Virus record (IMG/VR): IMGVR_UViG_3300044993_000281
Span: 1-32,423 of that record
DNA from: a virus
DNA length: 32,423 bases
Strand: one strand, 5' to 3'
This document shows positions 2 to 31,962 of this stretch, in pieces (the stretch's first letter is position 1; every line of letters begins with the position of its first letter). The notes under the pieces were generated by a model. That model was not told the origin of the DNA and made no database searches. It was given only the letters and a program-made list of their open reading frames with translations. The position numbers and the translations under genes were made by a program.

Positions 2-3000
2 GACGATCCATTTACGATGGGGCACGAGTTCATACGGATGCTGACCCAAGACAAATTTTTCAATCAAGTCACGGAAAGCACGGAAATAGATGACGGGTTA
101 ATTGCCTATTTGCGCGAGTTGCTGGAGAAAATCGGTCGGCAACTTCGGAGTATGCTGGCCGATCCTGCCATAACCGATGCGGCCACACGTCAGGCTGTGC
201 GGGAAGCCGAGGGGTTGGTGGCCCGTCGCTTATCCGATCTTGGGGTAAAAAAAGAGGTTTCCGAAGGAGGACAGAAGCAGTTTAGTTCAAACAATGATTC
301 AACCAATTATCTATCGTTTGAACGGGGCACCACCTCCGCAGACAATCGAGGAGGTTTACTTGGAATTGAACGGGGAACTGGAATGGAGGAAGTTTCTCGA
401 CAAACACTTTCCGGTCGAGGAACTGCCCCTGTTTCGGTGGAAGCGGGAGAGGATGTTGCGCTTGCAGGCGAAGAGACTTCTCGCAAATTGCCCCCAGCGC
501 GTTTCTCTCAATTAGGCGATGTTGGCGTAGCCTACACGGACAACAATGACCCGGTGGAATACCGCTGGGCACTGGCGGAATTGGATGATTTGGTCATCAG
601 CAATGAAGACAGCGGGGCCATCAACCCGCGGTATCCGCAGGAATTGCAGCCACGGGACCGGAGCACGGCGGGCAGTCAAGCCCAAGTCAACGACATTGCC
701 AGGAACGCAAATTTCGACCGCCTGAGCTTTTCGGAGAGTGTTGGCAATGGGGCGCCTATTGTGGGGCCGAATGACGGTGTGGCGGAAAGCGGCAACGGGC
801 GCCTGATGGGTTTGCGCCGGGCCTACAATCTTGAACTTCCATCCATCAAAGTTTACCGGGAAAAACTGGCGGCAAACGCCGAAAAATTCGGTTTGGACGG
901 TTCCAAGGTGGCGGCGATGAAGAAACCGGTTCTGGTGCGGGTGCGCCAAACCACGCTGGATCGTCGCAAGTTTGTGGAAGTGGCCAACGTGTCGAACGTG
1001 GCTCCGATGCGGGAAATGGAGATTGCCCGGAAGGATGCGGCGAATCTTTCCCTTGGATTGTTTGAATTGTTCAATCCCGATGAGAACGGGAACATTTTAA
1101 CAGCGGGGAATCAGGATTTTATCCGGGCATTTGTCCTCAACGTGATTCCGCAAACCGAGAGGGCGGCCATTGTTGACAGCCGGGGCGGATTGTCGCAAAG
1201 CGGGCTTCGCCGGATTCGGAACGCGCTTTTTGTCTATGCCTACGGTGATTCCCCGGAGGCGATGAACGCCTTGGGCCGCATGGCCGAAGACATTGAGGCG
1301 GATGGCAGGAATATCACCAACGCACTGATTGCAGCGGCGCCCGTTTTCGCCCGCCAGAATGCCGCGATCAAAAACGGTTCCCTGCACGATGCGGGGATTA
1401 GCGGCGATCTTGTTGCTGCTGCACAAGCCCTGATGGAAATCCGTGCGCGTGGGGAACGGGTTTCTGATTATCTGCAACAAGGCCAGTTGATTGATGATGG
1501 CGTCACGCCGTTGCAACGGGAAATTTTGCAATTTCTTGACCAAAACGGGCGAAGCGCGAAGCGGATTTTGGAAACATTGCGCCGGTATGCGGTGGCTTTG
1601 GATGCGGCGGGCGACCCGCGTCAGGAACAGTTGTTGCAAATGGACGCCCCCACCAAAGAAAGCCTTTGGAATCTGGCGAAAAAGCCGAATGCTGAAGAGC
1701 CGATTTTGCAGTCTGGCAAGCGTGCGGTGGCTGCTCCGAACTGGATGCGTATTTACAACCGGCTGTTCAACATGGAACGGGCGGGGGCTCGCCTCAACGA
1801 GAGCCAGCGTTCGTTGCTGGAACGGGCAGAGCGCGAGTTGGGGCAAATCCTCATGTTTGCCGGAGAGGGATACGGTCCGGCCCCGCGTGGCGAGGGTGTT
1901 AACGTAGGAATTTTTGATGAAGGCCAGGATCAGGGCCGGTTGTTTGCCGGTCAACGTTCGGGCGAGCAGCTAGACCTTTTTGACACCCTTTCGGAATCCC
2001 AGCGCCGGGAAGTTCAGTCCCGCGAGTTGGATTTGTTCGGAAATCCGTTTACGGAATCCAAACCCACCCGTATTAGTAGTAAAAAAAGAAAGGCACCCGA
2101 TGAATCTGGACTACGACAAAGTGATGAGCTTTTTGGCCAATTCAACTTCCAAAGAGTTGAGCCAATGGAGCAAAAACTTGGACTTTTTGAAGAAGAAAAT
2201 GGTCCACGCTTACGTTCGGGATTGGGGCAATCTGGAACCGGATACACAGGAAGCACTGGAAGCAGCGACGGCGGACGGCAGTCTTTACGACCGGGCGGAA
2301 GAGAAGATTTATTACCTGATGAAACATCAGCCGGAGACATGGGAGGCGATCAAGCTGGCGGTGAACCAACTGGATCCGGACAGCGGGATCGCGGCGTTTC
2401 TGAATGGGTATTGACCCGACCACCTGCAGGATCGCCAGACCGAAACCACGTAATCCGCGAAGGCGACACACTGGCCCCGCGTGGGGACATTGCCCGCATC
2501 CGGGCCAACATTGACGCCATTCGGCTTTTACGCCGTTTGGAGGAAGAGGGGCGCAATCCCACTGTCGAGGAGAAGAAGATTCTGGCTCAATATGTTGGCT
2601 GGGGCGGCCTGCCGCAGGTGTTTGACGACGAGAAGGCAGCCGCCTTTGCAAATGACGAGCACAGAACGCGCCGAAGCACGGCGGACGTTTACGAGCGGTA
2701 TGGCCCCGCCTACTACAAGATAGTCGAGGACTACCGCAAGCAGGCCCAAGCGATTGAGAACTGGCATGAAAAGTGGGGCAAGTGGCACGCCGAACTGAAA
2801 GAACTGCTCACGCCGGAAGAATACTCTGCGGCGGCTGCCAGCACGCTCAATGCTCACTACACCAGCCCGGAGGTGATCCGGGCCATGTGGGACATGGCGC
2901 AAAGGCTGGGTTTCCGTGGTGGCTCCGTGCTTGAGCCTGCCGGTGGGGTTGGCCACTTCTTTGGTCTGATGCCGGAAGGTATTGCGGAATCCAGCCAGTT

Positions 3001-6000
3001 GAGTGCCGTCGAACTGGATAGTCTCACGGGCCGGATTCTCACCAAGCTGTATCCTGAGGCCGACGTTCAAGTGACGGGTTTTCAGGACGCAAAGATTCCT
3101 GACAATTCGGTTGATCTGGCCATTTCCAATGTGCCGTTCGCCAACATTTCCATTTTTGATCCGGAAATGGAAGCGGCGAAGGCTCCGAAATTTTCCCTGC
3201 ACAATTACTTTTTTGCCAAGGCGCTGCAAAAGGTGCGTCCGGGTGGGCTGATTGCCTTTATCACGACCAGCAACACGATGGATGCCAATGTCCGGCAACG
3301 GAAGTGGCTGGCGGAACGCAGCGAATTGATCGGAGCCATTCGCCTGCCCAATACGGCTTTCAACGAAAACGCCAACACGGAAGTCACCACGGATATTCTG
3401 TTTCTCCGCAAGCCGGACGGAACGCCGCCCGTTTTTGACCGGGAAGAATGGGCTTCGACCGCCGAAGCCAAGACCCGGAAGGGCGAGCCAATCCAGATCA
3501 ACGAATACTTTGTCCGGCACCCGGAAATGATCCTTGGGGAATTGGACAATGACGGCAAAATGTATGGCCGACCCGATGAAAAGGGTCAGATGACCGTGCA
3601 TCCATTCCAGGGGAAACCCCTTGCGGAATCGCTGTCCGAAGCTGCGGAACGCCTGCCCGCCAATGTCATTTTCACATCAGCCGAAGCCGTTCCTGAAAGA
3701 AACCAGCGGAGTCAACAAATTTGGCGTGAGACGCGCGGGAATAAAGTTGGAACTCTGAGCAAGTTGGACGACGGAAGCATTGTCATTTCCGGCGTATTCG
3801 ACCAAAATGAGGACATCCTGAAACCAAAAAACCGGAAGCTGGCCGAGGATTTCATTGCCTTGCGGGACACCCTCAATGCGCTTTACGAAAGCGAACTGAA
3901 TCCCGACGCGACCGACAGCCAGATCGAGGGGCAGCGCGAACTGCTTAACCGCCGCTACGATGCTTTTGTCCGGGATCATGGCAACCTGCATAAGTTTGTC
4001 GATTTGCTGGGCATCGACCCGGATTTTTACCGGCTGCTGGGCACGGAGATCGAGCAGAAGCCGGAAAATGCAGCGGAGTCCATCCGGGTCATTCTTTCCC
4101 GGAAAAAACGTTACCGGAAGGGCGATGTTTTCACCAAGCGGGTGCTTACCCCCCGGCGCGAGCCGGAAAAAGCGGAGACGGTGGAAGATGCCTTGGGAAT
4201 TTCGCTTGGATGGCGTGGCCGCATAGATGTTGATTTCATGGCCCGCTTGCTGAGCCGGGAACAAGCGGAGGTTGAAAACGAACTTCTGGTTGGAGGCATG
4301 GCTTTCCGCAACCCGGAGAGCGGACTGTTGGAAACCCGCGAAGAATACCTGAGCGGGAACGTGCGAAAGAAGCTTCGCGTGGCGGAGATTAAGGCGGCGG
4401 AAGACCCGGCCTATGGTCCGAATGTGGAGGCATTGCAACGGGTGCAGCCGGAAGACGTGAAGATTGCGGACATCAAGATGAAGTTGGGAAGCGCATGGAT
4501 TCCTGCCGATGTTGTGCAAAGGTTCGCCCGTCAGATTTTTGATTCCGAGGCCGTGGATGTGATCTACCACCCCGGACGCGGGGAAATGATCGAAGATTCT
4601 TGGGAAATCCGATACGGCGGAAAGGGGACGGCGGCCACTGGAAATCTTACGGCTGCCATGTCGCAGATTTACGGCACCAATCGCATGTCCGGGCTGGCCC
4701 TTTTGGAAAAAGCGTTGAACCTGCAACAGCCGGAAATTTACGACACCAATAATGACGGAAAGACCCGGATATTCAATCCGACTGCGACCACCCAGGCAAA
4801 GGTGGCGATGCAAAAAATCAAAGATGCTTTCGATCAGTGGGTGCAGCGGAATCCCGATGTGCAGGAGGAATTGGCGAAGGTTTACAACGAGGTCAACAAC
4901 TCCCATGTGCTTCGGCAGTATGACGGGCAATTCCTGCAATTCCCTTGGATGGCCGCGGGCTTTGATCTTTTTTCCGAAAAGAAAAACGTGGTTTGGCGGG
5001 CGATTCAGGATGGGCGAATGTTGATTGCGCACGGCGTGGGTGGTGGCAAGACCATCATTGGCACGTCGATTGCAATGGAACTCAAGAGGCTGGGACAGGC
5101 TCGGAAGCCGCTGATTGTCGTCCACAATGCCACGCTGGAACAGTTTGCCGGAACGATCAACGCAATGGCCCCCACCGCTCGCGTGCTTGTTGCCCGGAAA
5201 AAAGACTTGGAAGGGAAGAAGCGCAAAGAGTTCATGGCCAAAGTCGCGGCGGGGGATTGGGATGCCGTGGTAATGGCGCATTCCAGCTTTGACATGATTC
5301 CCGATGATCCGGCTTACGAGGCCAAACTGATCAACGAGTTGCAGGAGGAATTGCGGGATGCCATCACGGAAATGGGAGGCAATCCAGACGGAGACGCCCG
5401 GAAAACCAAAGACCCCACCGTGAAGGAAATGCAAAAACAGCTTGCCCGGCTGGGAGAACGCATGAAGGAATTGCAAGACCGCAAGCGCGACGATGTGCTG
5501 AATTTCCAGGAGCTTGGCATTGATGCCCTGATTCTTGACGAGGCCCACCTTTACAAAAAAATTCCATTCGTCACAAAGTTGCGGCGCATTGCCGGGATTG
5601 ACAACGGTGCCAGCAAGCGGGGCACCGCCCTGATGACGAAGGTGCGGTTTATCCAAGAGAAAAACAAGGGCCGGAACGTGTTTACCATGACGGGAACCCC
5701 CGTCACGAACACGTTGGGCGAGTCTTGGAATATGATTCGCTTGGTGGCTCCCGATCTGCTCAAGGAATTTAATGTCGAGAACTTCGATCGCTTTGTTTCG
5801 ACCTTTGCCGACATTGTGAACAGCGCGGAACTCCGCGCCAACGGCGCTTACAAGCAAATTGATCGCTTGGCCGCCCTAGCCAACCTGCCGGAATGGAACA
5901 GGTTTTTCCGTCTCGGCGCAGACGTGAAAATGGGTGAGGACATGCAGGTGCGGGGCCGACCAGAAATCAAGGGTGGCAAGCCGGAACTCGTTGCGGTGGA

Positions 6001-9000
6001 AAGGACGCCGCAGGTCTCCAAGTTCACCGACTTCATCAAGGGAGTGATCGATTGGTATGACAACTTGGACGGCAAGCAAAAAAAAGAGTTCAGCCATCTT
6101 CCCCTTGTGACTTACAACGCCGCAAAGATGGCGGCCATTGACATCCGGCTGGTCGATCCCCAAGCCAAGGATGAGCCAGGCAGCAAGGTGAACATTGCTT
6201 TGAAAAAGGTTGTGGAACTTTACCGCCGCACCAATGATTACCTTGGCACGCAGGTTATTTTTGCCGACAGCTTCCGGCCGCTGAAAAGCACGGCGTTGGA
6301 TATAAGTGCGGCGGATTTGGAACCGGGCGAATCGCTGGATGATGATGAAAAAGCCGAGCGCGAAGCGGATGCGGCAGGAGGTTTCAATCTCTATCGGGAC
6401 ATGAAAGCCAAGCTGGTTGCTTCCGGCATCCCGGAAGCCGAGATTGCGATAATTTCCGACTACGACACCGACAAGAAAAAGGAGCGCCTTTTTGAACAAG
6501 TCAACGAAGGCCAAGTGCGCATCGTCATTGGCAGCACGCAACGGCTTGGCACCGGGGTGAACATGCAACGGCGCATGATTGCGGCACACCATCTGGACGT
6601 GCCTTGGACACCGGCGGAACTTGAACAGCGGGACGGGCGGGTTTACCGGCAAGGGAACATTCATTCCGAGCTTGGCGTGCCGGTCGAGATTTACCGTTAC
6701 GGGATGAAGGATACTCTTGACGCTGCCCTGTGGCAAAAGCTGGAAACCAAGGAACGGTTTATCAAGCAGGCATTGAGCGGGAAAATGAATTCCCGCAGCA
6801 TCGAGGATGATACCGGGCTGCTGAATTTGGCGGAACAGAAGGCTGTGCTTTCCGGCCCGCTGGGGATGCGGAAATTCGAGGCCGACCAGCGTGTGCGTGA
6901 ATTGCAAGCCGAGGAACGGGCTTGGCGCATGAGTGTGGCGGAAGCGGGCCAGAATGCGAGCAAAGCATCCAAGTGGCGGAGAATAGCCGAAGGTGGCTTG
7001 GCCAAAGCCCGGCGAACTCTGGAATCCGTAAAATCGTGGAGCGGGCCGGTTTCTTTGGAAATTGGCGGGAGGTCGGCCAAAGGTGCGGAACAAGCCACGG
7101 AATTGCTGAAAAGTGTCTTCGAGGAGCGATTGAGCCTGATCCGTTCCATTGCCAATCCAAGCACCAGCCCCCGCGCAAATTCTCCGATGGGCAAAGCATT
7201 TTTCAACGGAACCGAGATTGAATTGGGCCGCCCCTCCATCAACGAACGGCTTGGTGAAAGCAAACCGGAAAACCGCTGGCGTATAGAAGTGCCAATTCTT
7301 TTCAACGGGGAGCCCATTGGTTCGGCGCAGTCGGCTGGATGGGTTTTGCGGCGTTTGCAGGAATTTCCTGCTTCCGTTGAGGAAACCATTGTGCGCTTGC
7401 AGCGGGAAATTGATCGCTACCAGAAACAGGAAGACGCGGCTCTGAAACAAATGGAAGGGGCTTTTCCGAAACAAGCCGAGCTGGAAGCAGCCCTTCTTGA
7501 ACAGTCCGAAGTCATGCGGTTGGTGAGTGAGAAGCCCGGCGAACAAGAAAACACACTAAATGATACGAATAGTGAAACCATACCTTCCTTAGCTTCCGGC
7601 GAACGTGCTCGTGGGCAGATTGGCATAAAATCAATTGACCGGGATTCTTTGGCAGCGTATTTACAAGAAGGAGGTGCTTCCGCGCAGGAGGCAAAACAAG
7701 AAAGTGAGCGAATTTCCCGAACCTTGGAACAGTCTTCCGGAGGCCGAGTGGCCGAAGCGGGAGGCTACATACAGAGCGATCTCTTTATTGATTCGCCGAG
7801 CCAACCGGGAGGGCCGGACCAAGGCCGCTCAAAGGCTGGCAAAAAGGCTGCCCTTGCAATCAACCCCGCCGCAGAAAGTGCCTCGGCTGACCTCATAGCC
7901 GGGCTGCAAGGTGACTGGGAGGCACTGGCGCGTGAAGTGGCCGCCAAGGGCCGCGCATCCAGCATTTTTCAATCACTGGTTTCAAGAGAAATCCCCACTT
8001 GGGACGTTCGCGGGAGCCGCATCAGCTCCCCTCAAGACGTTCTAAATCTTATCGCTCCAATTCGTTCCCCGTTCTTTGAATCGCTCAAAGTGGCAATTCT
8101 GGATGGCAAAGACCGCGTTGTAGCCAGCAAAATTCTCTTTGTCGGAAGCCTCAACGAAAGTGTAGCGGACCCGAAAGCCTTGTTCGGCGAGCTGGCACTA
8201 CTTCGCGAGCAAACCGGCAAAAACTATTCGAGAATCATCTTTTCTCACAACCATCCGAGTGGAGACCCAACCCCATCTACAGCCGATAATAATCTGACTC
8301 GAAGAATTGTCGAAATTGCAAATCTCGCGAAATGGACCGTTGTTGATCACGTCATCACCAATGGAGAACAGTTTTTTTCTTTTCGCGAAGCGGGAATTAT
8401 TTATCAGCCCAACGTTGCAACAGATAGGACGGAATCTCCGACACCTCCACCAACGCCGCCATCCCAGCAGCCCTCTCAACAGAAATGGGAGGTTGTTCCC
8501 CGCAGTAAACTTCAAAGGATGGACGCATTTGAATACGCCAGGGATTTGGCCAAGCACCTCCGCAACGCAAATCCAGATGCCGCGCATATAATTTACCTGA
8601 GCACAAAATTAACTCTCATTGGCGTTGAAAGGATTGATGTAAACACGCTTGACTCGGAACATGAGCTAACCAAAACCCTCATTGCCGGAGCTGCCAGGGA
8701 AGGCGCGTATGCGTTTATTGTTGATGCGCCGTCCACCAATTCTTTTTCAGACAAAGGGCCATCTTTCCGTGATTTCGATCGAGCAAAAAGAATCAAAGAC
8801 ATTGCCAATGCAATAAATCTACAATTTTTAGACTTGTTGCATATATGGCCGGATGGAAATAGCACGAGTTATAAAGAAAAAGGCTTCGTCTTGGAGAGTC
8901 CTTCATTCATGTGGTCGGCGAGCAAAAAGCCCGGCGAACAAGAAAACACACTAAATGATACGAATAGTGAAACCATACCTTCCTTAGCTTCTGGCGAACG

Positions 9001-12000
9001 TGCTCGTGGGCAACTCATGTTTGACTTTGGACTTTATCGCAATCCGGGCGAGTTTGATTTCACCGACCGGGGCAAGGCACCCGGTGATTTGGTGAAAGAA
9101 AACATGGGTTTGGCGACCGCCATTGCCAATGATTTTTCGAACATTTCAGGCGTGGAGAAGGATGATGTGATCCAACAGGCGCGGGTTGCGTTGGTCAAGG
9201 CTGCAAAAGCCTACGATCCGTCCAGGGGTGTTCGGTTTGGGGTTTATGCGGGCCGGGCCATAAGGAATGAATTGTCTTCTCTTTACGGAAAACAGAGTCG
9301 GAGAACATCGCTTGAAGGCGATTCTCTGGATCGTCCGTTGGAAAATGCACCCGGTGAAACTGTCATGGATACCATTGCCGGGGAAAATGCCTGGAACGTG
9401 ATTGCCCCGGTGGAGCGCAATGAAACCAGAGACATCCTGAAAGGTTTATTGGCAAAGCTTCCAGAGCGGCCTCGCGCCATTGTCGAAGGATTCATGGCCG
9501 GGGAGAGCGGCGAGGAAATTGCGGCCCGGATGGGAATAACCCGGCAGGCGGTCAACGCGAGCTTGCAGGGAGCGTTGGCCGTTATGCGCCAGCGTTTGCG
9601 GGAACGGGGATTCAAGGGACAGGAAGATGGAGTGCTTTTTTCCGGTGAGCGTGACGATGAAAATTCGCCTGAAGACCTTTTTGCGGAACTGAACCGTGAA
9701 CTTCCCAGCCAGGAGGAAATTGACGAGCTTCGGCAAAAAGCGGCTGCGGAACCAATCGGCCAGCGCACCATCGGGCAGCCCCGAAAGGCAAACTATGCCG
9801 AAGACGACGCGACGCGGGTGGAAATCAACGTGGTTCAGCAAATGCGGGAAGAGGCCCGCAAGCGTGAGGAAGAAAGCGCGTGGATTGCGGAGGCTCGGAA
9901 GCGAATCGAAACCAACCGGGATTTGGCCAAGAAGGAAATTTTGCAGAAGGCCATGAACCCGGCCAAGTTTGGCACGTTTACGGCGGTGGACGTGAAAACA
10001 GCTCAGTTGCTTGTGCCGGAACTCATGCGGGAAGCCTACCGATCCGGTGACAAAACCAAGCAACGCGAGGCGTTTGCTTTGGCGTGGGCCTACGATGCTG
10101 GGGGGAGCGACCAAGCACGCGCCTTTGCTGCCCGGCGTGATCCGTTCAAGACCCCAGCCGAACGCCACATGGAATTTTTGACCAAGATGATTTCCACACC
10201 CACGGCGGAGCAACGGAAGTGGATTGCCCAAGCCGCCACGCAGGAAGAGAAAGCGCAGAGGCTGGAACAGGCCCAAAACGAACGGCTGGCGAAGATCGAG
10301 AAAGCGCTGGCCGACATGGGTGTGACTCTTGAAGACATCTTCGCCGGAGAAGCCTCCGTTGTGCTCAAGAGTGCCACGTTTGTGCAAAACGCCATCAAGT
10401 CTTTTGGGAAAGAGGAAGAGCGCAAGGTGATCCGCCTGACGCTGGATGGATTTTCCGACAAGGAAATTGCCAAGAAAACCCGGCTTTCGATCAAGGATAT
10501 TCAGGCCGTGCAAGACCGCATGGACGAAATTCTGGCCAAACGATTGGGAGAGTATGCCGAGCGTGGGTTTACCGCCGCTGATCTGGAAACCCTTGACATT
10601 TCCGAACTGTTTGCCGGTGAGAAGCCGGAGGTTCGCAAGGTGGCTCTTACTCCCGATCAAAAAGCAAAAATCGTGGCGGAAATGTTGCGGAAAATCCGAC
10701 CCGACCGGGAGGTGAGGAACAGCAAAAAGCTGGTGAAGCGCCGGAAGCCCCGCCGCAAACTTGAAAACCAAGCAGGGAGCGACGCGGAACGGGAAGCGTA
10801 TGAGAACGAACAGCCGTGGGAATATGTCGGGTTTGACCCTGGGAATCAGGATCAGGTGATTCGGGTGGCCCGGCTTGTGCAGGCTGCCGACGCCAACGCC
10901 ATCGACATGTTCTACGAAGCGTGGATTAACAGCATCCTTTCCGGCCCGCAGACCCAAGTGGTCAATATCATGGGCAATGCCGCGAATGCCCTGTGGGATT
11001 TCATGGTCCAGCGCCCGATGGAGGCCGCCATCAATGCCGCCTTGGTGAAGGATGCAGACGCGGCCAGTTTTGGAGAACTGCGTTACTTATTCCGTGGTGC
11101 CATTCCGGGCATAATCAAAGGATGGCAAGCCGGAATACGGGCATGGAACGCGGAACATGACTTTTTCGAGTCTGAAAAGCTCAACCAGCAAATCGAGTTT
11201 GAGGAATTTGACAAGGCGGGTGACATCAAGGTGACAATTCCCGGAAAGACTGGACGGTTCATCCGCATTTCGGGCCGTGCGCTGATGTTCATGGACAGCT
11301 TTTTCAAATATGCCACGGGGCAGATGGAAGCTGGAGCGCAAGCTTACCGCCTAGGCAAGGCCCAAGGCTTGGAGGGGCAGGCGTTGGAGGATTTTATCCG
11401 GTCGGAAATCAACCTACCCGGCAGCATGTCGTGGCAGCGGGCCGTGGCAAAGGCTAAGGATTTGACTTTCCAGACCGCCCTGCCCAAGGATGGCATTGGC
11501 GGTGTCGTTCGCAAGATCGGGGAAATACGCCGGGGAAAATCCACGTCCATCGGCGGGCGCTTGATGGAATTGTTCCTTGGCATGACGTTCCCCTTCATCC
11601 GCACGCCTTACAACATCTTCCGAATTGGCCTCCGCAAGAGTCCGCTGGGGGCGCTGAATGTTGCCTACCATATTCGCCAAGGCTTTTATTCGATGAAGAA
11701 AGGCCGACCTTTTGTTGAGGGATATTCCAAAGCCCAGCTTGTATCTGATTTGGCGGAACAGACGCTTGCATGGGTGGGAATGGCACTTTTGTGGGGAATG
11801 GTCGAAGGTGATGGTGAGGATGATGACGATGACAAGATGATTTTGATCACGGGTTCACGGCCCTACGGGGTTGACCGACAAGGGGAAAGGGATGCGCTTA
11901 ACCGCATGTATGGCGGCCCTTATCAAATCCGCATCGGCGGGAGGAATGGCATTTATTTCAACTACGGGCGGATCGAGCCATTTGCGACCGTGCTGGGCAC

Positions 12001-12721
12001 GGTGGCGGATATGGTCCGGCTGGCCAAGAGCCGGGATGCTTCGGATGCGGGCATCAAATTGTTTGGCTACTTCATGGCCCAAGCCAACGAGAAAACCTTT
12101 TTGCAGGGCTTTTCCACCATTACGGACACCATTGACGGAGCCATGCGTGATCCGAAGTCTGTGGCCAAGGCGTGGGAACGCCAGTTCCTTTCCGGCTTGG
12201 TTCCCAATATCATCCGTCAACCTCTGCGAAATTTGGATGATTTTGTCCGGGACAGCAAATACGCCGGGTTGGATTACACCCTGTTCGCCGCGCCAAACAT
12301 GGCCGAAAAGCGGGTGAATCTTTACGGCGAAGACATGCAGAAGCAGGGCAGTGGTCTTTCCCGCCTGTTCTTTGTTTCGGGTATCAAGCCGACGGAAACC
12401 CTGAAAACAGGTGACAGGTTTCTTGTGAATTGGAACGAAAAGAACCGGGATGCAGCCTACTGGCCGGAACGCCCGAACTCGTCTTTCTACCGCTTGAAAA
12501 ATCGCTTCGGAGAGCTTGTGGAAATGACTCCTGGGCAAATTGCCACCTTGGACAAAATGGCCGGGCATGCTTTTGAGCGCAAGTTGCGGAAATGGCTGAC
12601 CCCATCCCGCGCCATGAACCCGACCGAGGCTGATTTGAAAAGGTTCAAAGAAGACCTGAGCGACGCACGGCGCGAGGCCAAAGAAACCATCGCCCGCCGC
12701 GCCCTTCTTGTGTCTCCCTGA
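2..12721 (+). CDS. Giant phage polyvalent protein (ddrB/ParB-like, N6-methylase, SNF2 helicase, RadC-like, sigma-70-like, virion C-terminus); 5' partial
   Basis: The frame is open from base 2 and the first ATG (17) has no ribosome site, so the N-terminus probably lies upstream. Residues are numbered from that ATG. Residues 160-530 are ddrB/ParB-like (NPRYPQELQPRDR at 203, then ESGNGR). Residues 780-1130 are an N6-adenine methylase (LEPAGGVG at 972, NVPF at 1038). Residues 1650-2290 are an SNF2-like helicase (GVGGGKT at 1673, DEAH at 1841, QRDGRVYRQG at 2204). Residues 2640-2795 are RadC-like (SHNHPSGD at 2743), and a weaker JAB-like copy follows to about 2960. Residues 3000-3200 resemble sigma-70 regions 2 and 4. 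From 3600 to the end the sequence looks like the C-terminus of phage DarB-like or ejection proteins, with a hydrophobic stretch near 3917 followed by an acidic run. Methylase plus helicase architecture is known from P1 DarB-type anti-restriction proteins carried in the head. The position just before the portal gene fits a virion protein. Delivery with the DNA is inferred. Confidence 0.93.
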   Translation, partial: DDPFTMGHEFIRMLTQDKFFNQVTESTEIDDGLIAYLRELLEKIGRQLRSMLADPAITDAATRQAVREAEGLVARRLSDLGVKKEVSEGGQKQFSSNNDSTNYLSFERGTTSADNRGGLLGIERGTGMEEVSRQTLSGRGTAPVSVEAGEDVALAGEETSRKLPPARFSQLGDVGVAYTDNNDPVEYRWALAELDDLVISNEDSGAINPRYPQELQPRDRSTAGSQAQVNDIARNANFDRLSFSESVGNGAPIVGPNDGVAESGNGRLMGLRRAYNLELPSIKVYREKLAANAEKFGLDGSKVAAMKKPVLVRVRQTTLDRRKFVEVANVSNVAPMREMEIARKDAANLSLGLFELFNPDENGNILTAGNQDFIRAFVLNVIPQTERAAIVDSRGGLSQSGLRRIRNALFVYAYGDSPEAMNALGRMAEDIEADGRNITNALIAAAPVFARQNAAIKNGSLHDAGISGDLVAAAQALMEIRARGERVSDYLQQGQLIDDGVTPLQREILQFLDQNGRSAKRILETLRRYAVALDAAGDPRQEQLLQMDAPTKESLWNLAKKPNAEEPILQSGKRAVAAPNWMRIYNRLFNMERAGARLNESQRSLLERAERELGQILMFAGEGYGPAPRGEGVNVGIFDEGQDQGRLFAGQRSGEQLDLFDTLSESQRREVQSRELDLFGNPFTESKPTRISSKKRKAPDESGLRQSDELFGQFNFQRVEPMEQKLGLFEEENGPRLRSGLGQSGTGYTGSTGSSDGGRQSLRPGGREDLLPDETSAGDMGGDQAGGEPTGSGQRDRGVSEWVLTRPPAGSPDRNHVIREGDTLAPRGDIARIRANIDAIRLLRRLEEEGRNPTVEEKKILAQYVGWGGLPQVFDDEKAAAFANDEHRTRRSTADVYERYGPAYYKIVEDYRKQAQAIENWHEKWGKWHAELKELLTPEEYSAAAASTLNAHYTSPEVIRAMWDMAQRLGFRGGSVLEPAGGVGHFFGLMPEGIAESSQLSAVELDSLTGRILTKLYPEADVQVTGFQDAKIPDNSVDLAISNVPFANISIFDPEMEAAKAPKFSLHNYFFAKALQKVRPGGLIAFITTSNTMDANVRQRKWLAERSELIGAIRLPNTAFNENANTEVTTDILFLRKPDGTPPVFDREEWASTAEAKTRKGEPIQINEYFVRHPEMILGELDNDGKMYGRPDEKGQMTVHPFQGKPLAESLSEAAERLPANVIFTSAEAVPERNQRSQQIWRETRGNKVGTLSKLDDGSIVISGVFDQNEDILKPKNRKLAEDFIALRDTLNALYESELNPDATDSQIEGQRELLNRRYDAFVRDHGNLHKFVDLLGIDPDFYRLLGTEIEQKPENAAESIRVILSRKKRYRKGDVFTKRVLTPRREPEKAETVEDALGISLGWRGRIDVDFMARLLSREQAEVENELLVGGMAFRNPESGLLETREEYLSGNVRKKLRVAEIKAAEDPAYGPNVEALQRVQPEDVKIADIKMKLGSAWIPADVVQRFARQIFDSEAVDVIYHPGRGEMIEDSWEIRYGGKGTAATGNLTAAMSQIYGTNRMSGLALLEKALNLQQPEIYDTNNDGKTRIFNPTATTQAKVAMQKIKDAFDQWVQRNPDVQEELAKVYNEVNNSHVLRQYDGQFLQFPWMAAGFDLFSEKKNVVWRAIQDGRMLIAHGVGGGKTIIGTSIAMELKRLGQARKPLIVVHNATLEQFAGTINAMAPTARVLVARKKDLEGKKRKEFMAKVAAGDWDAVVMAHSSFDMIPDDPAYEAKLINELQEELRDAITEMGGNPDGDARKTKDPTVKEMQKQLARLGERMKELQDRKRDDVLNFQELGIDALILDEAHLYKKIPFVTKLRRIAGIDNGASKRGTALMTKVRFIQEKNKGRNVFTMTGTPVTNTLGESWNMIRLVAPDLLKEFNVENFDRFVSTFADIVNSAELRANGAYKQIDRLAALANLPEWNRFFRLGADVKMGEDMQVRGRPEIKGGKPELVAVERTPQVSKFTDFIKGVIDWYDNLDGKQKKEFSHLPLVTYNAAKMAAIDIRLVDPQAKDEPGSKVNIALKKVVELYRRTNDYLGTQVIFADSFRPLKSTALDISAADLEPGESLDDDEKAEREADAAGGFNLYRDMKAKLVASGIPEAEIAIISDYDTDKKKERLFEQVNEGQVRIVIGSTQRLGTGVNMQRRMIAAHHLDVPWTPAELEQRDGRVYRQGNIHSELGVPVEIYRYGMKDTLDAALWQKLETKERFIKQALSGKMNSRSIEDDTGLLNLAEQKAVLSGPLGMRKFEADQRVRELQAEERAWRMSVAEAGQNASKASKWRRIAEGGLAKARRTLESVKSWSGPVSLEIGGRSAKGAEQATELLKSVFEERLSLIRSIANPSTSPRANSPMGKAFFNGTEIELGRPSINERLGESKPENRWRIEVPILFNGEPIGSAQSAGWVLRRLQEFPASVEETIVRLQREIDRYQKQEDAALKQMEGAFPKQAELEAALLEQSEVMRLVSEKPGEQENTLNDTNSETIPSLASGERARGQIGIKSIDRDSLAAYLQEGGASAQEAKQESERISRTLEQSSGGRVAEAGGYIQSDLFIDSPSQPGGPDQGRSKAGKKAALAINPAAESASADLIAGLQGDWEALAREVAAKGRASSIFQSLVSREIPTWDVRGSRISSPQDVLNLIAPIRSPFFESLKVAILDGKDRVVASKILFVGSLNESVADPKALFGELALLREQTGKNYSRIIFSHNHPSGDPTPSTADNNLTRRIVEIANLAKWTVVDHVITNGEQFFSFREAGIIYQPNVATDRTESPTPPPTPPSQQPSQQKWEVVPRSKLQRMDAFEYARDLAKHLRNANPDAAHIIYLSTKLTLIGVERIDVNTLDSEHELTKTLIAGAAREGAYAFIVDAPSTNSFSDKGPSFRDFDRAKRIKDIANAINLQFLDLLHIWPDGNSTSYKEKGFVLESPSFMWSASKKPGEQENTLNDTNSETIPSLASGERARGQLMFDFGLYRNPGEFDFTDRGKAPGDLVKENMGLATAIANDFSNISGVEKDDVIQQARVALVKAAKAYDPSRGVRFGVYAGRAIRNELSSLYGKQSRRTSLEGDSLDRPLENAPGETVMDTIAGENAWNVIAPVERNETRDILKGLLAKLPERPRAIVEGFMAGESGEEIAARMGITRQAVNASLQGALAVMRQRLRERGFKGQEDGVLFSGERDDENSPEDLFAELNRELPSQEEIDELRQKAAAEPIGQRTIGQPRKANYAEDDATRVEINVVQQMREEARKREEESAWIAEARKRIETNRDLAKKEILQKAMNPAKFGTFTAVDVKTAQLLVPELMREAYRSGDKTKQREAFALAWAYDAGGSDQARAFAARRDPFKTPAERHMEFLTKMISTPTAEQRKWIAQAATQEEKAQRLEQAQNERLAKIEKALADMGVTLEDIFAGEASVVLKSATFVQNAIKSFGKEEERKVIRLTLDGFSDKEIAKKTRLSIKDIQAVQDRMDEILAKRLGEYAERGFTAADLETLDISELFAGEKPEVRKVALTPDQKAKIVAEMLRKIRPDREVRNSKKLVKRRKPRRKLENQAGSDAEREAYENEQPWEYVGFDPGNQDQVIRVARLVQAADANAIDMFYEAWINSILSGPQTQVVNIMGNAANALWDFMVQRPMEAAINAALVKDADAASFGELRYLFRGAIPGIIKGWQAGIRAWNAEHDFFESEKLNQQIEFEEFDKAGDIKVTIPGKTGRFIRISGRALMFMDSFFKYATGQMEAGAQAYRLGKAQGLEGQALEDFIRSEINLPGSMSWQRAVAKAKDLTFQTALPKDGIGGVVRKIGEIRRGKSTSIGGRLMELFLGMTFPFIRTPYNIFRIGLRKSPLGALNVAYHIRQGFYSMKKGRPFVEGYSKAQLVSDLAEQTLAWVGMALLWGMVEGDGEDDDDDKMILITGSRPYGVDRQGERDALNRMYGGPYQIRIGGRNGIYFNYGRIEPFATVLGTVADMVRLAKSRDASDAGIKLFGYFMAQANEKTFLQGFSTITDTIDGAMRDPKSVAKAWERQFLSGLVPNIIRQPLRNLDDFVRDSKYAGLDYTLFAAPNMAEKRVNLYGEDMQKQGSGLSRLFFVSGIKPTETLKTGDRFLVNWNEKNRDAAYWPERPNSSFYRLKNRFGELVEMTPGQIATLDKMAGHAFERKLRKWLTPSRAMNPTEADLKRFKEDLSDARREAKETIARRALLVSP
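294..515 (+). CDS. Candidate overprinted small gene, 73 aa
   Basis: This ORF lies in the +1 frame relative to the giant gene, over a linker whose main-frame translation is Gly/Ser/Glu-rich and low in complexity. The overprinted product has balanced composition and looks like a real helical protein (for example TIEEVYLELNGELEWRKFL), with codons similar to neighbouring genes. It stops just where the main frame becomes ordered again, before the ddrB/ParB-like domain. A GGAGG lies at 266-270, but 23 bases upstream of the ATG, which is far for a ribosome site. I recognise no family. It could be a functional nested gene, a relic of a small gene absorbed when two larger genes fused, or chance. Confidence 0.4.
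   Translation: MIQPIIYRLNGAPPPQTIEEVYLELNGELEWRKFLDKHFPVEELPLFRWKRERMLRLQAKRLLANCPQRVSLN
2100..2414 (+). CDS. Candidate overprinted gene, 104 aa, in the linker before the methylase domain
   Basis: The ATG at 2100 follows an AAAGG stretch about nine bases upstream, and the ORF runs 104 codons in the +1 frame of the giant gene. Its translation is well mixed and predicted helical: MNLDYDKVMSFLANSTSKEL at the start, DWGNLEPDTQEALEAATADG in the middle, IAAFLNGY at the end. Over the same bases the main frame is a repetitive Gly/Ser/Thr/Asp linker. This is the pattern expected when the +1 frame is the older or more constrained coding frame. No family is recognised. It may be an expressed nested gene or the remnant of a small gene between the ParB-like and methylase genes before they fused. 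Confidence 0.5.
   Translation: MNLDYDKVMSFLANSTSKELSQWSKNLDFLKKKMVHAYVRDWGNLEPDTQEALEAATADGSLYDRAEEKIYYLMKHQPETWEAIKLAVNQLDPDSGIAAFLNGY
7532..7617 (+). repeat. 86-bp direct repeat, copy 1
   Basis: This copy matches 8927-9012 with one mismatch in 86 bases (C at 7597, T at 8992). The offset is 1,395 bases, exactly 465 codons, so both copies are read in the same frame and give the same peptide from KPGEQENTLNDTNSET to SGERARGQ. The core is AT-rich, with ATA, TTA and CTA codons that look uncommon in the flanking sequence. Within the repeat the 9-mer CCGGCGAAC occurs at 7536 and again at 7596. The copy lies at the junction between the helicase part and the RadC-like cassette. Confidence 0.97.
7618..8926 (+). 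other. RadC-like (JAB/MPN) cassette within the giant gene, between direct repeats
   Basis: The segment between the two 86-bp repeats encodes a RadC-like fold: LFVGSLNESVADPKALF, then SHNHPSGDPTPS (residue 2743 onward), then VVDHVITNGEQFFSF. The His-x-His-Pro-Ser-Gly and downstream Asp fit the JAMM metal site of RadC/JAB proteins. After a proline-rich spacer (about 8430-8470) comes a second domain of about 130 residues ending in LLHIWPDGNSTSYKEKGFVL, which looks like a divergent copy of the same fold with its metal site altered. The stretch is visibly more AT-rich than its flanks. In-frame repeats at both ends suggest that the block was gained, or can be lost, as a unit by recombination. Confidence 0.75.
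7704..7898 (+). CDS. Candidate overprinted small gene, 64 aa, in the linker before the RadC-like domain
   Basis: A GTG at 7704 follows AGGAGG at 7686-7691. The 64-codon ORF is again in the +1 frame of the giant gene and covers a main-frame linker rich in Gly, Ser, Pro and Ala. Its product is basic and helical-looking, starting MSEFPEPWNSLPEAEWPKRE and continuing with ISLLIRRANREGRTKAAQRL. It is the third such ORF in the same relative frame, and all three sit at domain junctions. No family is recognised. The evidence is weaker than for 2100-2414, because the start codon is GTG and the spacing to the ribosome site is 12 bases. Confidence 0.33.
   Translation: MSEFPEPWNSLPEAEWPKREATYRAISLLIRRANREGRTKAAQRLAKRLPLQSTPPQKVPRLTS
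8927..9012 (+). repeat. 86-bp direct repeat, copy 2
   Basis: This copy is identical to 7532-7617 except at 8992. It lies directly before the sigma-70-like domain, which starts at about 9014. Recombination between the copies would remove exactly 465 codons and keep the giant frame open, joining the helicase part to the sigma-like part. Confidence 0.97.
9014..9640 (+). other. Sigma-70-like domain (regions 2 and 4) within the giant protein
   Basis: Residues 3023-3087 read like sigma region 2: DLVKENMGLATAIANDF, then DDVIQQARVALVKAAKAYDP, then RGVRFGVYAGRAIRNEL, matching the usual alternation of DLxQEGxxGLxxAxxxFDP and FxxYAxxxIRxxI motifs. Residues 3140-3196 read like region 4: LLAKLPERPRAIVEGFMAGE, then EEIAARMGITRQAVNASLQG, a helix-turn-helix. 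The two are joined by about 50 residues, the spacing of compact group 3/4 sigma factors. Finding a sigma-like module fused into a DNA-modifying, probably virion-carried protein is unusual. Whether it binds core RNA polymerase is inference. Confidence 0.75.
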
Positions 12722-12760: not shown

Positions 12761-12937
12761 ATGCAAAAATTCCGGGTTTACTACGACGATCCGAGCGACG
12801 GCGCTCGTTGCACACAGGTCGTGCAAGCCTCCGGTCCATTGGAAGCCACTGAAGACATCCGGCAATTAGGCGGAAAAATCCGCAAGGTAAAAATCATCAC
12901 GGAACAAGGAGAGGAGGCTTATTGTGAACAGCCCTGA
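12761..12937 (+). CDS. Small conserved-looking protein between the giant gene and portal, 58 aa
   Basis: A short acidic/basic mixed protein (MQKFRVYYDDPSDGARCTQV at the start) predicted as alpha/beta, without membrane segments. I do not recognise a family. An in-frame ATG at 12749 would add four residues, but it falls inside the candidate -10 element and has no ribosome site, so the ATG at 12761 is preferred. The end overlaps the portal start by 14 bases, and the portal ribosome site lies inside this gene, so the two are probably translated from one message. Confidence 0.7.
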   Translation: MQKFRVYYDDPSDGARCTQVVQASGPLEATEDIRQLGGKIRKVKIITEQGEEAYCEQP

Positions 12938-15140
12938 AAACGACCAGTTGACGAATTTCGTCAAGCAAATACAGGACATTGTTCCCGTGCCGGATTTCGG
13001 CGCGGACGGACAAGACCTGCCGCGGATTCCCTTTCCAACATCTTACCTTCTGTCAGGCCAGCAGGAAAAAGACCTGATCGAGCACGCTTTGCGCCGCCTT
13101 CGGGAACTTGAAGATGAGTTGGGTCGTTCTTGCACGGGGGATTCCAATTGGTATGAGAGCATTGACTATTCGGAACTCGGACGGCGCTCTTTTTTGGGAA
13201 AGCGGCAGCTTTACGAGATGCTTTACCACAATCAGGTGGACTGGCGGCCACACTTGCTGGGGGGCATTTTCAACGACAGCAATTTGATTGTGCCGCTGTC
13301 CCGCCGCATTGTGCGGCAGATGGTTGCACGGGCGAACAATTATTTTTTTGCGACCGACCCGTGGTTTGCGGTCTATCCGGTAGGCGTGGCCGACCGCGAG
13401 TTGGCGAGCGACATTGAGCGTTACACCCGGTTCAAATTTGATCAAAGCCGCCAGAAACATGTGCTTGAATTGGCGGTGGAACTAGCCTTTGTGCGGGGCG
13501 AAGCCGTGGTGAAGACCACCTACGAGTCTAGGGAACAGCTTTACCAAGAACAGGCATCTGTGCTGGTGGACGAACAAGGGGCGGATATTCTGGATGCTAG
13601 CGGGGATTACATTGTCGAAACCGATCTGTGGGTGGCGGAAACGGAAACGGAAATCAACCCACAGACTGGCCAGCCCGGCGCCCCGCTTCCAACCGGGCGC
13701 ATGGTTCTCAAGCGCGATGGGGTGACGCCAAAACCTGCCAAGATGATTTTTCAATCCAAGCTCATCACCCGAAAGATCACCCATTTCAAGGGGGCGGAGT
13801 CGGCCATTGTTTTTTACAAGGATTTTCTCTGTCCGCTGAATGCGCCCAGCGTTCAGGATGCGGATTGCATTGTCCACCTTTACGACATGCCGGTGATGCG
13901 CTTGGCGGACATGTATCAGCGCAAGGCGATGCTGGACATGAGCAACGAGGAATCCATGAGAGCCACCCAGCGGGCGGTGGAATTGATCCGCAACATGGCT
14001 TTCGAGAGTGGTCGGCCCAAAGCGTTCAAAAATCAAAACCGCCCGGAACTTGGCGAGGATACGGGCACGACAGAGCGGACGGAACCGGTGGTTGAAATCG
14101 CGGAGTTTCATTTGCGCTACGACGCCAACGGCGACGGCATCATGGAAGACATCATGCTGGTCATCGACCGAAAGAATCAGGTGCCGATTTTCTACGACTA
14201 CGAAGCGAACGTGACGCCGGACGGCCTGCGTCCCTTCGATGTGGTGAGGATCAACGAAGTGGATGGACGCTGGCACGGGATCGGGGCGATGGAAATGTTT
14301 GAGTCTTCGCAGGAAATCGTTGATCTGTTGGTCAATCGCTGGAATTTCAGCCAGAGTCGCGCGGCGCGGGTTGATTTGTGGAGTCCGCACAACACGGTTG
14401 AGGGCGATTCCAACAAGAACCTGCAACTGAATTGGGGCAGAACTTACACGCCAAAGCCGGGAAAGACGGCGAAAGATATTTTGGAATTTGTCACGCTCCC
14501 GGACGTGAAGCACGAGGCACTGAAAAACATGTTCGAGTTTTTCATGCAGATGGCGACGAACGAAAGCGGCGTGGCCAACGCGAACGATGCACGAGCGGTG
14601 GGCTTGGATACCGCCGAATTAGCGACCGGCGTGCGGAATATCGAAAAGAGCGGGCAGGAGATGTTTTCTCTTTATCTCTCCCACTTGGAACCGGGATTGC
14701 AGAGCATCATTCAGCGTGCGATGGGGCTGATTTTTGCCAACTTGGATCAGGAGGAAGTGTTCGTATTTTTTGAGGGTGACAAGCAATCCTTCGGCATGAT
14801 CCGGCCTGAAGATGTGCAGGATTTGGAATTGAATGTTTCCCTGCTTTTGACCCGCTACCGTGGCGAACAGCTTTTGCAGAGTTCCATGCAGGCCGCCAAT
14901 CTGGTGACGCAGTTTTATTCCCACCTGCCGGAAATTCAGGTGCGGGTGGCACCGCTTTACCGGGACATGCTCAAGGCGCTGCAAATCAATTTTGCTGACG
15001 AAATCATTGTGCCGCTTGCTGCCCCGCCGATGGGGACAGGGCCATCGGGAACTGCACCGGGCACCCCCAAGGTGAATCCTGAGGAGGCCGTGCAAGCCGT
15101 CCAGCCCAAACCGCCGGGGCAGAGCCAGCCGAACTTCTAA
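12924..15140 (+). CDS. Portal protein (podovirus type)
   Basis: A 738-residue protein that forms the dodecameric DNA-entry vertex of the head. It starts at a GTG preceded by GAGGAGG. It has the features of large podovirus portals: an N-terminal helical region with IVRQMVARANNYFFATDPWF, a central acidic/hydrophobic part with EIAEFHLRYDANGDGIMEDI, then ESSQEIVDLLVNRWNFSQSR, and a Pro/Gln/Gly-rich flexible tail (GTGPSGTAPGTPKVNPEE). Length and gene order (portal, then scaffold-like protein, then capsid protein) support the call. No terminase is seen in the window. The assignment rests on overall resemblance by eye, not on a single catalytic motif. Confidence 0.85.
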   Translation: MNSPENDQLTNFVKQIQDIVPVPDFGADGQDLPRIPFPTSYLLSGQQEKDLIEHALRRLRELEDELGRSCTGDSNWYESIDYSELGRRSFLGKRQLYEMLYHNQVDWRPHLLGGIFNDSNLIVPLSRRIVRQMVARANNYFFATDPWFAVYPVGVADRELASDIERYTRFKFDQSRQKHVLELAVELAFVRGEAVVKTTYESREQLYQEQASVLVDEQGADILDASGDYIVETDLWVAETETEINPQTGQPGAPLPTGRMVLKRDGVTPKPAKMIFQSKLITRKITHFKGAESAIVFYKDFLCPLNAPSVQDADCIVHLYDMPVMRLADMYQRKAMLDMSNEESMRATQRAVELIRNMAFESGRPKAFKNQNRPELGEDTGTTERTEPVVEIAEFHLRYDANGDGIMEDIMLVIDRKNQVPIFYDYEANVTPDGLRPFDVVRINEVDGRWHGIGAMEMFESSQEIVDLLVNRWNFSQSRAARVDLWSPHNTVEGDSNKNLQLNWGRTYTPKPGKTAKDILEFVTLPDVKHEALKNMFEFFMQMATNESGVANANDARAVGLDTAELATGVRNIEKSGQEMFSLYLSHLEPGLQSIIQRAMGLIFANLDQEEVFVFFEGDKQSFGMIRPEDVQDLELNVSLLLTRYRGEQLLQSSMQAANLVTQFYSHLPEIQVRVAPLYRDMLKALQINFADEIIVPLAAPPMGTGPSGTAPGTPKVNPEEAVQAVQPKPPGQSQPNF

Positions 15141-15163: not shown

Positions 15164-15433
15164 ATGAGTGAAGCCAAAAGCTTGCTTCAAGCCGATCAAG
15201 ATTTGAGCGACATTCGGGTGTTGCAAAAGCTTCCGGCTTTTGAGCGCTATTTTTTGCGTCGGCTGGCGGAAAAGCGGGATCATTTTGCTGCCTTGGTATT
15301 GGACTCCGATGCCACGCCGGAACGGAGGGAAATCTGGCGACAAATATATCAAGAATATAAGACCTTGTGCAGCATGTTGGAACAAGACGAAGCCAATGCG
15401 GTCAAGCTGCTGGGGGCTGCATCCAAGCAATAA
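15164..15433 (+). CDS. Small hypothetical protein, 89 aa
   Basis: An all-helical-looking acidic protein (MSEAKSLLQADQDLSDIRVL at the start, REIWRQIYQEYKTLCSMLEQ near the end), without membrane segments. It follows the portal by 23 bases. A GTG at 15158 in the same frame would add two residues; ATG is preferred, although neither has a clear ribosome site. The position directly after the portal suggests a minor head protein. No family is recognised. Confidence 0.72.
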   Translation: MSEAKSLLQADQDLSDIRVLQKLPAFERYFLRRLAEKRDHFAALVLDSDATPERREIWRQIYQEYKTLCSMLEQDEANAVKLLGAASKQ

Positions 15434-15438
15434 ATTCT

Positions 15439-30344: not shown

Positions 30345-30532
30345 CCACAAAAAAAATCCGCTACATGGAGGATGCTCTCTACCGAACCAGTGACTCACAC
30401 TTTTTTAAGCTGCCGGAAGAACTCCGCAGCGACTTGGACATCCCGGCGTTCATGCGCCTGGGTATTCCCATCAAAAACAAAAAAACCCCGGCGTTGGAGC
30501 GCCGGGGAAAAACACAGAAAGGTAAGACATGA
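30341..30532 (+). CDS. Small basic hypothetical protein, 63 aa
   Basis: GGAG precedes the ATG, which overlaps the upstream stop. The product starts MTTKKIRYMEDALYRTSDSH, continues FFKLPEELRSDLDIPAFMRL and ends in a lysine-rich tail. It has no known domain. The 3' part of the gene contains a perfect 8-bp hairpin (30486-30507) that codes for KTPALERRGK. The stop overlaps the ATG of the Sak4-like gene. Confidence 0.62.
   Translation: MTTKKIRYMEDALYRTSDSHFFKLPEELRSDLDIPAFMRLGIPIKNKKTPALERRGKTQKGKT
30473..30507 (-). terminator. Minus-strand terminator inside a coding sequence
   Basis: CCCCGGCG (30486-30493) and CGCCGGGG (30500-30507) form a perfect 8-bp GC stem with a 6-base loop. On the minus strand the stem is followed by seven Ts, a G and five more Ts (30485 to 30473), a textbook intrinsic terminator. 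On the + strand only A residues follow, so sense transcription should pass. It would stop antisense transcripts before they reach the regulator region. Confidence 0.6.
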
Positions 30533-31488
30533 ATGAAAATACCAGCGCGATCTCACTCGCGCAAGTCAAAAAAGGACGGGTGCTCCTTCCGCATTTCGTC
30601 CTGATCTACGGCGTCGATGGCGTGGGCAAAACCACGTTCGCGGCGGAGGCTCCCAATCCGGTCTTTATCGGCACGGAAATGGGATTTGGACAACTGGACG
30701 TGGCGCGGTTTCCCACCCCGAAAAACTTCCAGGAAGTGCTGGCGACGGTTCAACTTCTCCTCAACGAGAAGCATGATTACAAGACGCTGGCCATTGATTC
30801 CCTTGATTGGCTGGAAACGCTTGTTTTCAAGCACATCTGCGACAAGCAGGGCTGGAAGTCGCTCGAAGACCCCGGATACGGCAAGGGCTATGCCTTTTTG
30901 CTCCCGACGTGGATGGAACTTGTCACGCTCCTGAAACGGCTGCGTGAAAAAATGAATGTGGTCTTAATCGCCCATGCGTCGATCCGCACGTTTAATGATC
31001 CCGAAAACAATGTCGCCTACAACCGCTATCAGTTGAAGCTGTTCACCAGCGAAAAAGTGGACACGGCAAGCCTGTGGCGTGAGGCCGTGGACAACGTGCT
31101 GTTCGCGAACTTCGAGGTTTCCACCACGCAGGCCAAGGGCGAGCGGAAGGCCAAAGCTTTTGGCGATGGCAGCCGCGTTGTTTACACCGAACGGCGCCCG
31201 GCTTTTGACGCCAAAAACCGTTTCAGTCTTCCCTTCGAGCTTCCGCTTTCTTGGGAAGAGTATGCCAAGGCGTGCGCGGATGCCTGCCCCAACGAGTCGG
31301 ATGAGATCAAGCAACTGGCCGGTGCCCTGAAAGGGCATGAAACGGAAGCCCTCGCTTGGCTGCGGAACAAAGGCTGGCTCAATCCGGATGGCAAGCTCTC
31401 GGATTTGGAGCCGAAACACCGTCGCCGCATTCTCAACAACCCCGATGGATTCATCGAAGTCATCACAACCGCAACCAAGGAGGACTAA
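30529..31488 (+). CDS. Sak4-like RecA-fold ATPase, single-strand annealing protein, 319 aa
   Basis: Walker A is GVDGVGKTT (residues 28-36), followed by a short strand with FIGTEMGFGQLD; Walker B is TLAIDSLDW (86-94). Then come VVLIAHASIRTF and the KLFTSEKVDTASLWREAVDN region typical of the phage AAA_24/Sak4 group, followed by a C-terminal helical extension (EIKQLAGALKGHETEALAWL). Sak4 proteins are RecA/Rad51-related and support single-strand annealing together with a phage SSB, and the very next gene is SSB-like. An AAAGG ribosome site precedes the ATG. It is cytoplasmic. Confidence 0.83.
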   Translation: MNENTSAISLAQVKKGRVLLPHFVLIYGVDGVGKTTFAAEAPNPVFIGTEMGFGQLDVARFPTPKNFQEVLATVQLLLNEKHDYKTLAIDSLDWLETLVFKHICDKQGWKSLEDPGYGKGYAFLLPTWMELVTLLKRLREKMNVVLIAHASIRTFNDPENNVAYNRYQLKLFTSEKVDTASLWREAVDNVLFANFEVSTTQAKGERKAKAFGDGSRVVYTERRPAFDAKNRFSLPFELPLSWEEYAKACADACPNESDEIKQLAGALKGHETEALAWLRNKGWLNPDGKLSDLEPKHRRRILNNPDGFIEVITTATKED

Positions 31489-31491
31489 GCC

Positions 31492-31944
31492 ATGCCACAT
31501 TACACCTACGACGACCCGGAGGACCGCCAAATGACGGTCGTAAAACCTGGCGAATACGACTTTGTGATCGCAGAAGTATTCGCCTTTGAAACCAGCAAAA
31601 ACACTGGCGCGGAATACCTGCCGATCAAGCTCCATATCAAGCCTGAGGGCACGGTGTTCGATAACCTGGTCTTTACCGACAGAGCAAAGTTCCGCATTGA
31701 TCAACTCCTAAAATCCATTGGCAAAGCACCGGCTCCGGGCTCCGCCGTGGATTTCGACGATCCGAGTTGGCTGGTCGGATGCAAAGGCCGCTGCCGCCTC
31801 AAGGTAGAAGAATACAACGGCCAAAAAAGAAACAAGGTAGATGCGTATCTCTTCACCCCCGGCGCTGTCATGGGCCGGAAGGTGACAAGCGCAGCACCAG
31901 CCGCCGCCCAACTTGACAAGGATGACGATAACATGCCGTTTTGA
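31492..31944 (+). CDS. Single-stranded DNA-binding-like protein (DUF669-like), 150 aa
   Basis: An AAGGAGG precedes the ATG. The protein is mostly beta (ADVK-type start is absent; instead MPHYTYDDPEDRQMTVVKPG, then YLPIKLHIKPEGTVFDNLVF, then CKGRCRLKVEEYNGQKRNKV), consistent with an OB-like fold, and it ends in the acidic tip DKDDDNMPF, which matches the C-terminal tail of SSB proteins (Asp-rich, ending Pro-Phe) that recruits partners. It lies directly after the Sak4-like gene and before a nuclease, which supports a recombination role. Family assignment is by style and tail, not by a full domain match. Confidence 0.78.
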   Translation: MPHYTYDDPEDRQMTVVKPGEYDFVIAEVFAFETSKNTGAEYLPIKLHIKPEGTVFDNLVFTDRAKFRIDQLLKSIGKAPAPGSAVDFDDPSWLVGCKGRCRLKVEEYNGQKRNKVDAYLFTPGAVMGRKVTSAAPAAAQLDKDDDNMPF

Positions 31945-31962
31945 AGCAAGGAAACTTTGCCC

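Follow-up and report, generated by a model that had tools for sequence, protein, structure and literature searches.

In-frame direct repeats bound a RadC module in the giant polyvalent-protein gene of a tailed phage and point to probable module exchange at inter-domain linkers

The IMG/VR virus record IMGVR_UViG_3300044993_000281 was analyzed over its full length of 32,423 nucleotides (the window; all positions refer to it). A giant open reading frame (ORF) encodes a multi-domain protein. Within this frame, between a methylase-helicase region and a sigma-70-like region, lies a segment with RadC domains that is enclosed by two 86-bp direct repeats. The features are:

2..12721, + strand: giant polyvalent-protein gene, 4,239 codons within the contig, 5' end lost at the contig edge (ORF list, translation, Pfam)
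2342..7511, + strand: DNA methylase and SNF2-like helicase dyad with C-terminal tail (Pfam; PHROG DarB-like antirestriction)
7512..7531, + strand: weaker match continuing upstream from repeat copy 1, 14/20 identical to 8907-8926, the six differences all transitions
7532..7617, + strand: repeat copy 1, 86 bp, linker KPGEQENTLNDTNSETIPSLASGERARGQ, boundary of helicase tail and RadC module
7618..8926, + strand: cassette between the repeats, with an N-terminal helical stretch conserved with relative L009, RadC, a disordered linker and a second RadC
8021..8395, + strand: RadC-like JAB domain (PF04002; PDB 2qlc match, E=2.7e-12)
8525..8884, + strand: second RadC domain, degenerate, without the HxH motif (PF04002 on this domain alone E=8.3e-7, 29.4 bits against a cut-off of 22.1)
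8927..9012, + strand: repeat copy 2, 86 bp, boundary of RadC module and sigma-like domain
9089..9577, + strand: sigma-70 region 2 (9089-9304; PF04542, E=9e-10) and region 4 (9434-9577; PF08281, E=4.4e-9); PHROG 351, RNA polymerase sigma factor

The two repeat copies differ only at 7597 (C) and 8992 (T), a synonymous exchange between the serine codons TCC and TCT, and their longest shared exact run is 65 bp. They are offset by 1,395 bp or 465 codons, in frame with the giant ORF. The coordinates 7532-9012 given in an earlier sequence-only reading of this DNA were right. The repeat pair scored 85; codon-shuffled controls for 35 giant genes did not yield any repeat with a score of even 19. The match in the 20 bp upstream of both copies has a p of about 1e-4 relative to random in-frame pairs, and the 106 bp of repeat plus extension contain 7 mismatches, every one a transition. 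Downstream of the repeats the match is not extended (4/20). The search for the repeat elsewhere that the same reading had called for revealed nothing beyond the two copies in the linear record, which is identical to the window, and an exact 39-mer from the repeat had no match in other IMG/VR contigs. The 86-bp repeat encodes an inter-domain linker that is the phage's own. An apparent kinship of the repeat peptide with linkers in relatives, such as SETIPSLPS in L004, was discarded since the similarity was no better than chance. The near-identity includes synonymous sites and therefore calls for a recent duplication or conversion, in agreement with what had been concluded from the letters alone.

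The RadC module scored 117 bits with PF04002 against the curated cut-off of 22.1. The HxH-x10-D (JAMM) metal motif of the first RadC domain is intact (HNHPSGDPTPSTAD at 8246-8287). A proline-rich linker joins it to the second domain, and in an AlphaFold2 model of low confidence (pLDDT 57) both domains have strands and helices in the same order. Since a second, weaker RadC match directly adjoins the first in L014 and L015 as well, the tandem is a conserved unit. A RadC-based search found the unit in about 20 other viral contigs, each time within a giant ORF and with varied neighbors. Its nearest relative by sequence is that of L009 (57% identity in RadC), where the neighbors differ. That the RadC-like segment is discrete and has the repeats at its edges is supported. 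The segment is also more AT-rich than its flanks, as had been noticed: the GC content at third codon positions (GC3) is 0.47 in the cassette and 0.62 in the remainder of the giant gene. In L013, L018 and L020 the RadC unit likewise ranks with the parts of its gene that have the lowest GC3, which is not the case in most relatives. The unit of L013 (9695-11062) has a GC3 of 0.41 in a gene with 0.74 and is likely a recent transfer.

To compare the slot between helicase and sigma domain, relatives were taken from helicase-based searches, with L021, L022 and L024 coming from the RadC-based search. Other queries added little: the sigma region led to no confirmed locus, the portal gene retrieved short contigs of which none reached the cassette, and blastn of the 3' half of the giant gene against cultured phages gave no match. 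In the window the slot holds the RadC unit. In the closest helicase relatives, L033-L036, the helicase tail continues directly into sigma and the slot is without content, as it is in L045 and L043, while L039/L008 have a linker only. An ADP-ribosyltransferase (ART) unit occupies the slot in L041 and L046, ART and RadC in L037/L011, and RadC in L044. RadC precedes sigma in L021, L022 and L024, and in L022 it lies between two ART-PolyVal copies. Neither sigma nor RadC was matched at the slot in L007/L042, L030, L031 and L040. Scanning whole contigs with PF04002 detected no RadC in L033, L034, L036, L045, L046 and others. The RadC unit of L044 is itself flanked by in-frame repeats, 33 bp long, identical at 31/33 positions and offset by 421 codons.

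A filled and an empty slot can be compared in the sister phages L045 and L046, which are 92.6% and 95% identical on the two sides of the slot. A 915-nt ART unit is present in L046 and missing from L045. In L046 the unit is flanked on both sides by the exact 15-bp linker CTCTCCGCCGCGCGC (LSAAR), of which a single copy, without the unit, is present in L045. The more distant outgroup L041 also has the ART unit, and a loss in L045 is therefore the more parsimonious interpretation. Judged from these sequences, the trio fits a precise in-frame loss of the ART module with one linker left behind.

Many giant proteins in the group repeat a short motif of their own between domains, in excess of shuffled controls. 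The motifs GxLLAK, LxSRRA, LFAKxR, LASSD, LxSSAE, LGSSP and LKSQNL occur among the giant ORFs of L022, L024, L021, L017, L016, L014, L007, L030 and L040. The private motifs with their counts, and the copies in the window, are:

L022: G.LLAK, six copies
L021: SL.SR.A, five copies
L024: L.SRRA, five copies
L017: LFAK.R, four copies
L030: LGSSP, four copies
L040: LKSQ.L, four copies
Window, 9635..9649, + strand: motif L-[FA]-[AS]-G-[EQ], copy LFSGE
Window, + strand, further copies: 1940-1954, 10337-10351, 10607-10621, and inside both repeats (7589, 8984)

The count of L[FA][AS]GE in the window is not significant by itself, and the repeats account for two of the copies. For most genes, codon similarity among the motif copies does not exceed the expectation from codon usage, and the copies are therefore old or selected as peptides. 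The motifs were not found in other ORFs of five loci tested. That they are universal was rejected, as four isolate phages with DarB-like proteins and several contigs are without them. Where related giant genes differ by large indels, the indel lengths are nearly all multiples of 3, and in two close pairs the breakpoints lie near the private motif (6/10 sides, p=2e-4; 4/4 sides, p=4e-5).

We consider it probable that the segment is an effector module, composed of a RadC/JAB domain with an active site and an inactive RadC partner, in a variable slot of the giant protein, and that modules of this kind are gained, lost and swapped there by recombination between linker copies. The 86-bp repeats would be two copies of an inter-domain linker that bound the module. 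Modules could enter or leave the slot, or be replaced, through recombination between such copies; the frame would be kept because start and end of the exchange fall in the same linker, and a module lost from between two linkers would leave a single one. Annealing or homologous recombination could drive the exchange, for example by the phage's own recombination genes, which lie at the other end of the contig:

30529..32421, + strand: Sak4-like annealase (30529-31488), single-strand-binding protein (SSB)-like gene (31492-31944) and exonuclease-like gene (31957 to contig end) (PHROGs 124, 378/2698, 298)

Together with its SSB, Sak4 anneals single strands (PMC5928155), and mosaicism in phages is driven by their recombinases (PMC3945230). 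A set of this kind, as encoded on the contig, can anneal single strands that share homology. The exchange may still be ongoing in this phage. Besides the two RadC domains in the module and the recognition of the repeat as an inter-domain linker, a slot-by-slot exchange common to the giant-gene group is what this analysis adds to the sequence-only reading. That reading had suggested in-frame gain or loss of the module; empty or differently filled slots and the L045/L046/L041 trio speak for it, and loss of this very cassette in this phage was not recovered, neither in a near-identical relative nor in a read set.

The last point is one of several that weigh against exchange between linkers. The difference in L045 could have arisen by routes other than repeat recombination. 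Breakpoint enrichment at the motif was not significant in 3 of the 5 pairs tested, which weakens the view that breakpoints fall in private motifs in all cases; since the motif patterns were partly chosen after inspection of the pairs, the link is a lead and not proof. The statistically best low-GC3 segment, 7247-9391, extends beyond the repeats, and for this reason the notion that the shift in composition coincides exactly with them was discarded. Furthermore, the order helicase-RadC is kept in L011 and L044 and the order RadC-sigma in L021, L022 and L024; the module may therefore be old in this phage. The last observation favors an account in which the module is old at its site and the linkers were homogenized by gene conversion, while the module itself was neither gained nor lost in the lineage. 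Identity also rises abruptly at 7531/7532, from 70% to 99%, and all differences are transitions; this pattern resembles an older and longer duplication with a homogenized core. We regard this account as unlikely, as the nearest helicase relatives (L033-L036, L007/L042, L030) are without RadC and the cassette with its repeats differs from the flanks in GC3. Gene conversion between old linkers may also have occurred alongside module exchange.

The linkers may instead be protein signals first, that is, private processing sites at domain boundaries that are cut by an embedded protease, zincin-like or of another type. Breakpoints would then occur there since insertions are tolerated between domains, and the identity of the 86-bp copies would reflect a recent incidental duplication. 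We give this proposal a serious though somewhat less than even chance. It agrees with the excess of private motifs over shuffles in L022, L021, L024, L017, L030 and L040, with the unremarkable codon similarity of the copies, by which selection would act on the peptide, with the absence of the motifs from other ORFs in the five loci tested, and with the metallopeptidase processing of polyvalent proteins proposed by Iyer et al. 2017 (PMC5512222). However, no protease was identified as cutting at the motifs, and the proposal leaves the near-identical 86 bp of DNA and the 33-bp pair of L044 unexplained. The private linker motif is perhaps a cleavage site, and processing and linker recombination are compatible and may both hold. 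That a phage-private linker serves as both recombination joint and processing site, with giant injected proteins built of interchangeable effector modules, is a more speculative idea that we put forward only tentatively.

An assembly artefact, either a chimeric join or a false duplication at a short repeat, comes to mind because the record is a metagenomic contig without reads and the gene is cut at its 5' end. It is very improbable given a frame that is unbroken over 12.7 kb and the same architecture in independent contigs; moreover, the two copies differ and share an exact run of only 65 bp, so that they should be separable with common k-mers and paired reads of 150 bases. Direct repeats around an inserted unit might also suggest that a mobile element brought in the RadC segment, by homing or with a target-site duplication. 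This we consider hardly credible, as the usual target-site duplications are far shorter than 86 bp, Pfam detected no transposase, intein or homing endonuclease in the cassette, and there are no inverted repeats of at least 30 bp as expected for a transposon insertion.

By its domain content the giant protein is a phage-type polyvalent protein. One ORF combines ParB, methylase, SNF2 helicase, RadC and sigma-70, several unrelated enzymatic domains, in a portal-bearing tailed phage with the giant gene near the head genes. The additional features are:

542..946, + strand: DdrB-like ParB superfamily domain (PF18763, E=4.4e-28)
12924..15140, + strand: portal protein gene (PHROG 1216), immediately following the giant gene

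The major head protein gene is also downstream of the giant gene. The methylase-helicase dyad is 52% identical to that of L006 over residues 781-2502 (54% in a second comparison), and sigma-70 regions 2 and 4 both score above the Pfam cut-off. The earlier designation as a virion protein is plausible for polyvalent proteins; here it is backed only by the location of the gene ahead of the portal gene and by a weak PHROG match to an internal virion protein (E=2.7e-11). The protein is probably co-injected with the phage DNA, and RadC could act early in infection on host nucleic acids or proteins.

Polyvalent proteins as a class, RadC domains and mosaicism in phages are already known. The protein resembles the phage-type polyvalent proteins of Iyer et al. 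2017 (PMC5512222) in its giant multi-domain build, DdrB-ParB, methylase-SNF2 helicase dyad, effector domains and location near head genes. In that survey RadC was found only in polyvalent proteins of conjugative elements. Its occurrence here in about 20 contigs from phages, inside polyvalent proteins of the phage type, goes beyond the 2017 survey. A term search of its text found no mention of sigma domains or linkers, nor the word sigma, and both RadC and sigma-70 domains are here extended to phage-type polyvalent proteins. DarB-like antirestriction proteins such as those of Ochrobactrum phage POI1126 (gp30) and Erwinia phage PEp14 share the methylase-helicase core at 34-38% identity, but the four isolates scanned have no RadC or sigma module match and no private linker motif. 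PDB 2qlc and E. coli RadC belong to the same RadC family with an intact HxH-x10-D, while here RadC is in tandem with a degenerate second RadC and embedded in a giant protein. Exchange of modules between phages at shared sequences is described by De Paepe et al. 2014 (PMC3945230) for mosaicism through recombinases with relaxed homology, and by Smug et al. 2023 (PMC10684548) for the shuffling of protein fragments. In the present case the joints lie inside a single gene and consist of in-frame linkers that recur; Smug et al. make no mention of linkers or direct repeats. In the open-licence literature we came across no description of in-frame modules bounded by repeats, or of private linkers, for polyvalent proteins; the modularity of these proteins is known there, and how domains enter and leave a frame longer than 10 kb is without explanation. 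A linker that recurs where modules begin and end, together with sister phages of which one has the slot filled and the other has it empty, offers a concrete and testable mechanism. If it is true, the effector set could be changed via simple excision or exchange inside one gene. The linker repeats would also provide a sequence rule for dividing giant proteins into units, and candidate cleavage sites.

Some further observations concern the giant proteins and the rest of the contig. A sigma-70-like domain is also fused in the giant proteins of L021, L022, L024, L033-L036, L041, L043 and L045-L047. The cut N-terminus of the window protein (2-200) starts with GHEFIRML and resembles a zincin HExxH stretch without the second histidine. 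A linker at 1967-1981 contains the pentapeptide QLDLF, which from its consensus we take to be beta-clamp-binding-like; L015 has three. At 15501-16500, in ORF 15367-16620, which has no PHROG family match, the GC content drops to 0.38-0.44. At 25831-26424, a tail-fibre-like ORF (24875-26518) contains 66-bp units, corresponding to 22 residues, in a tandem array.
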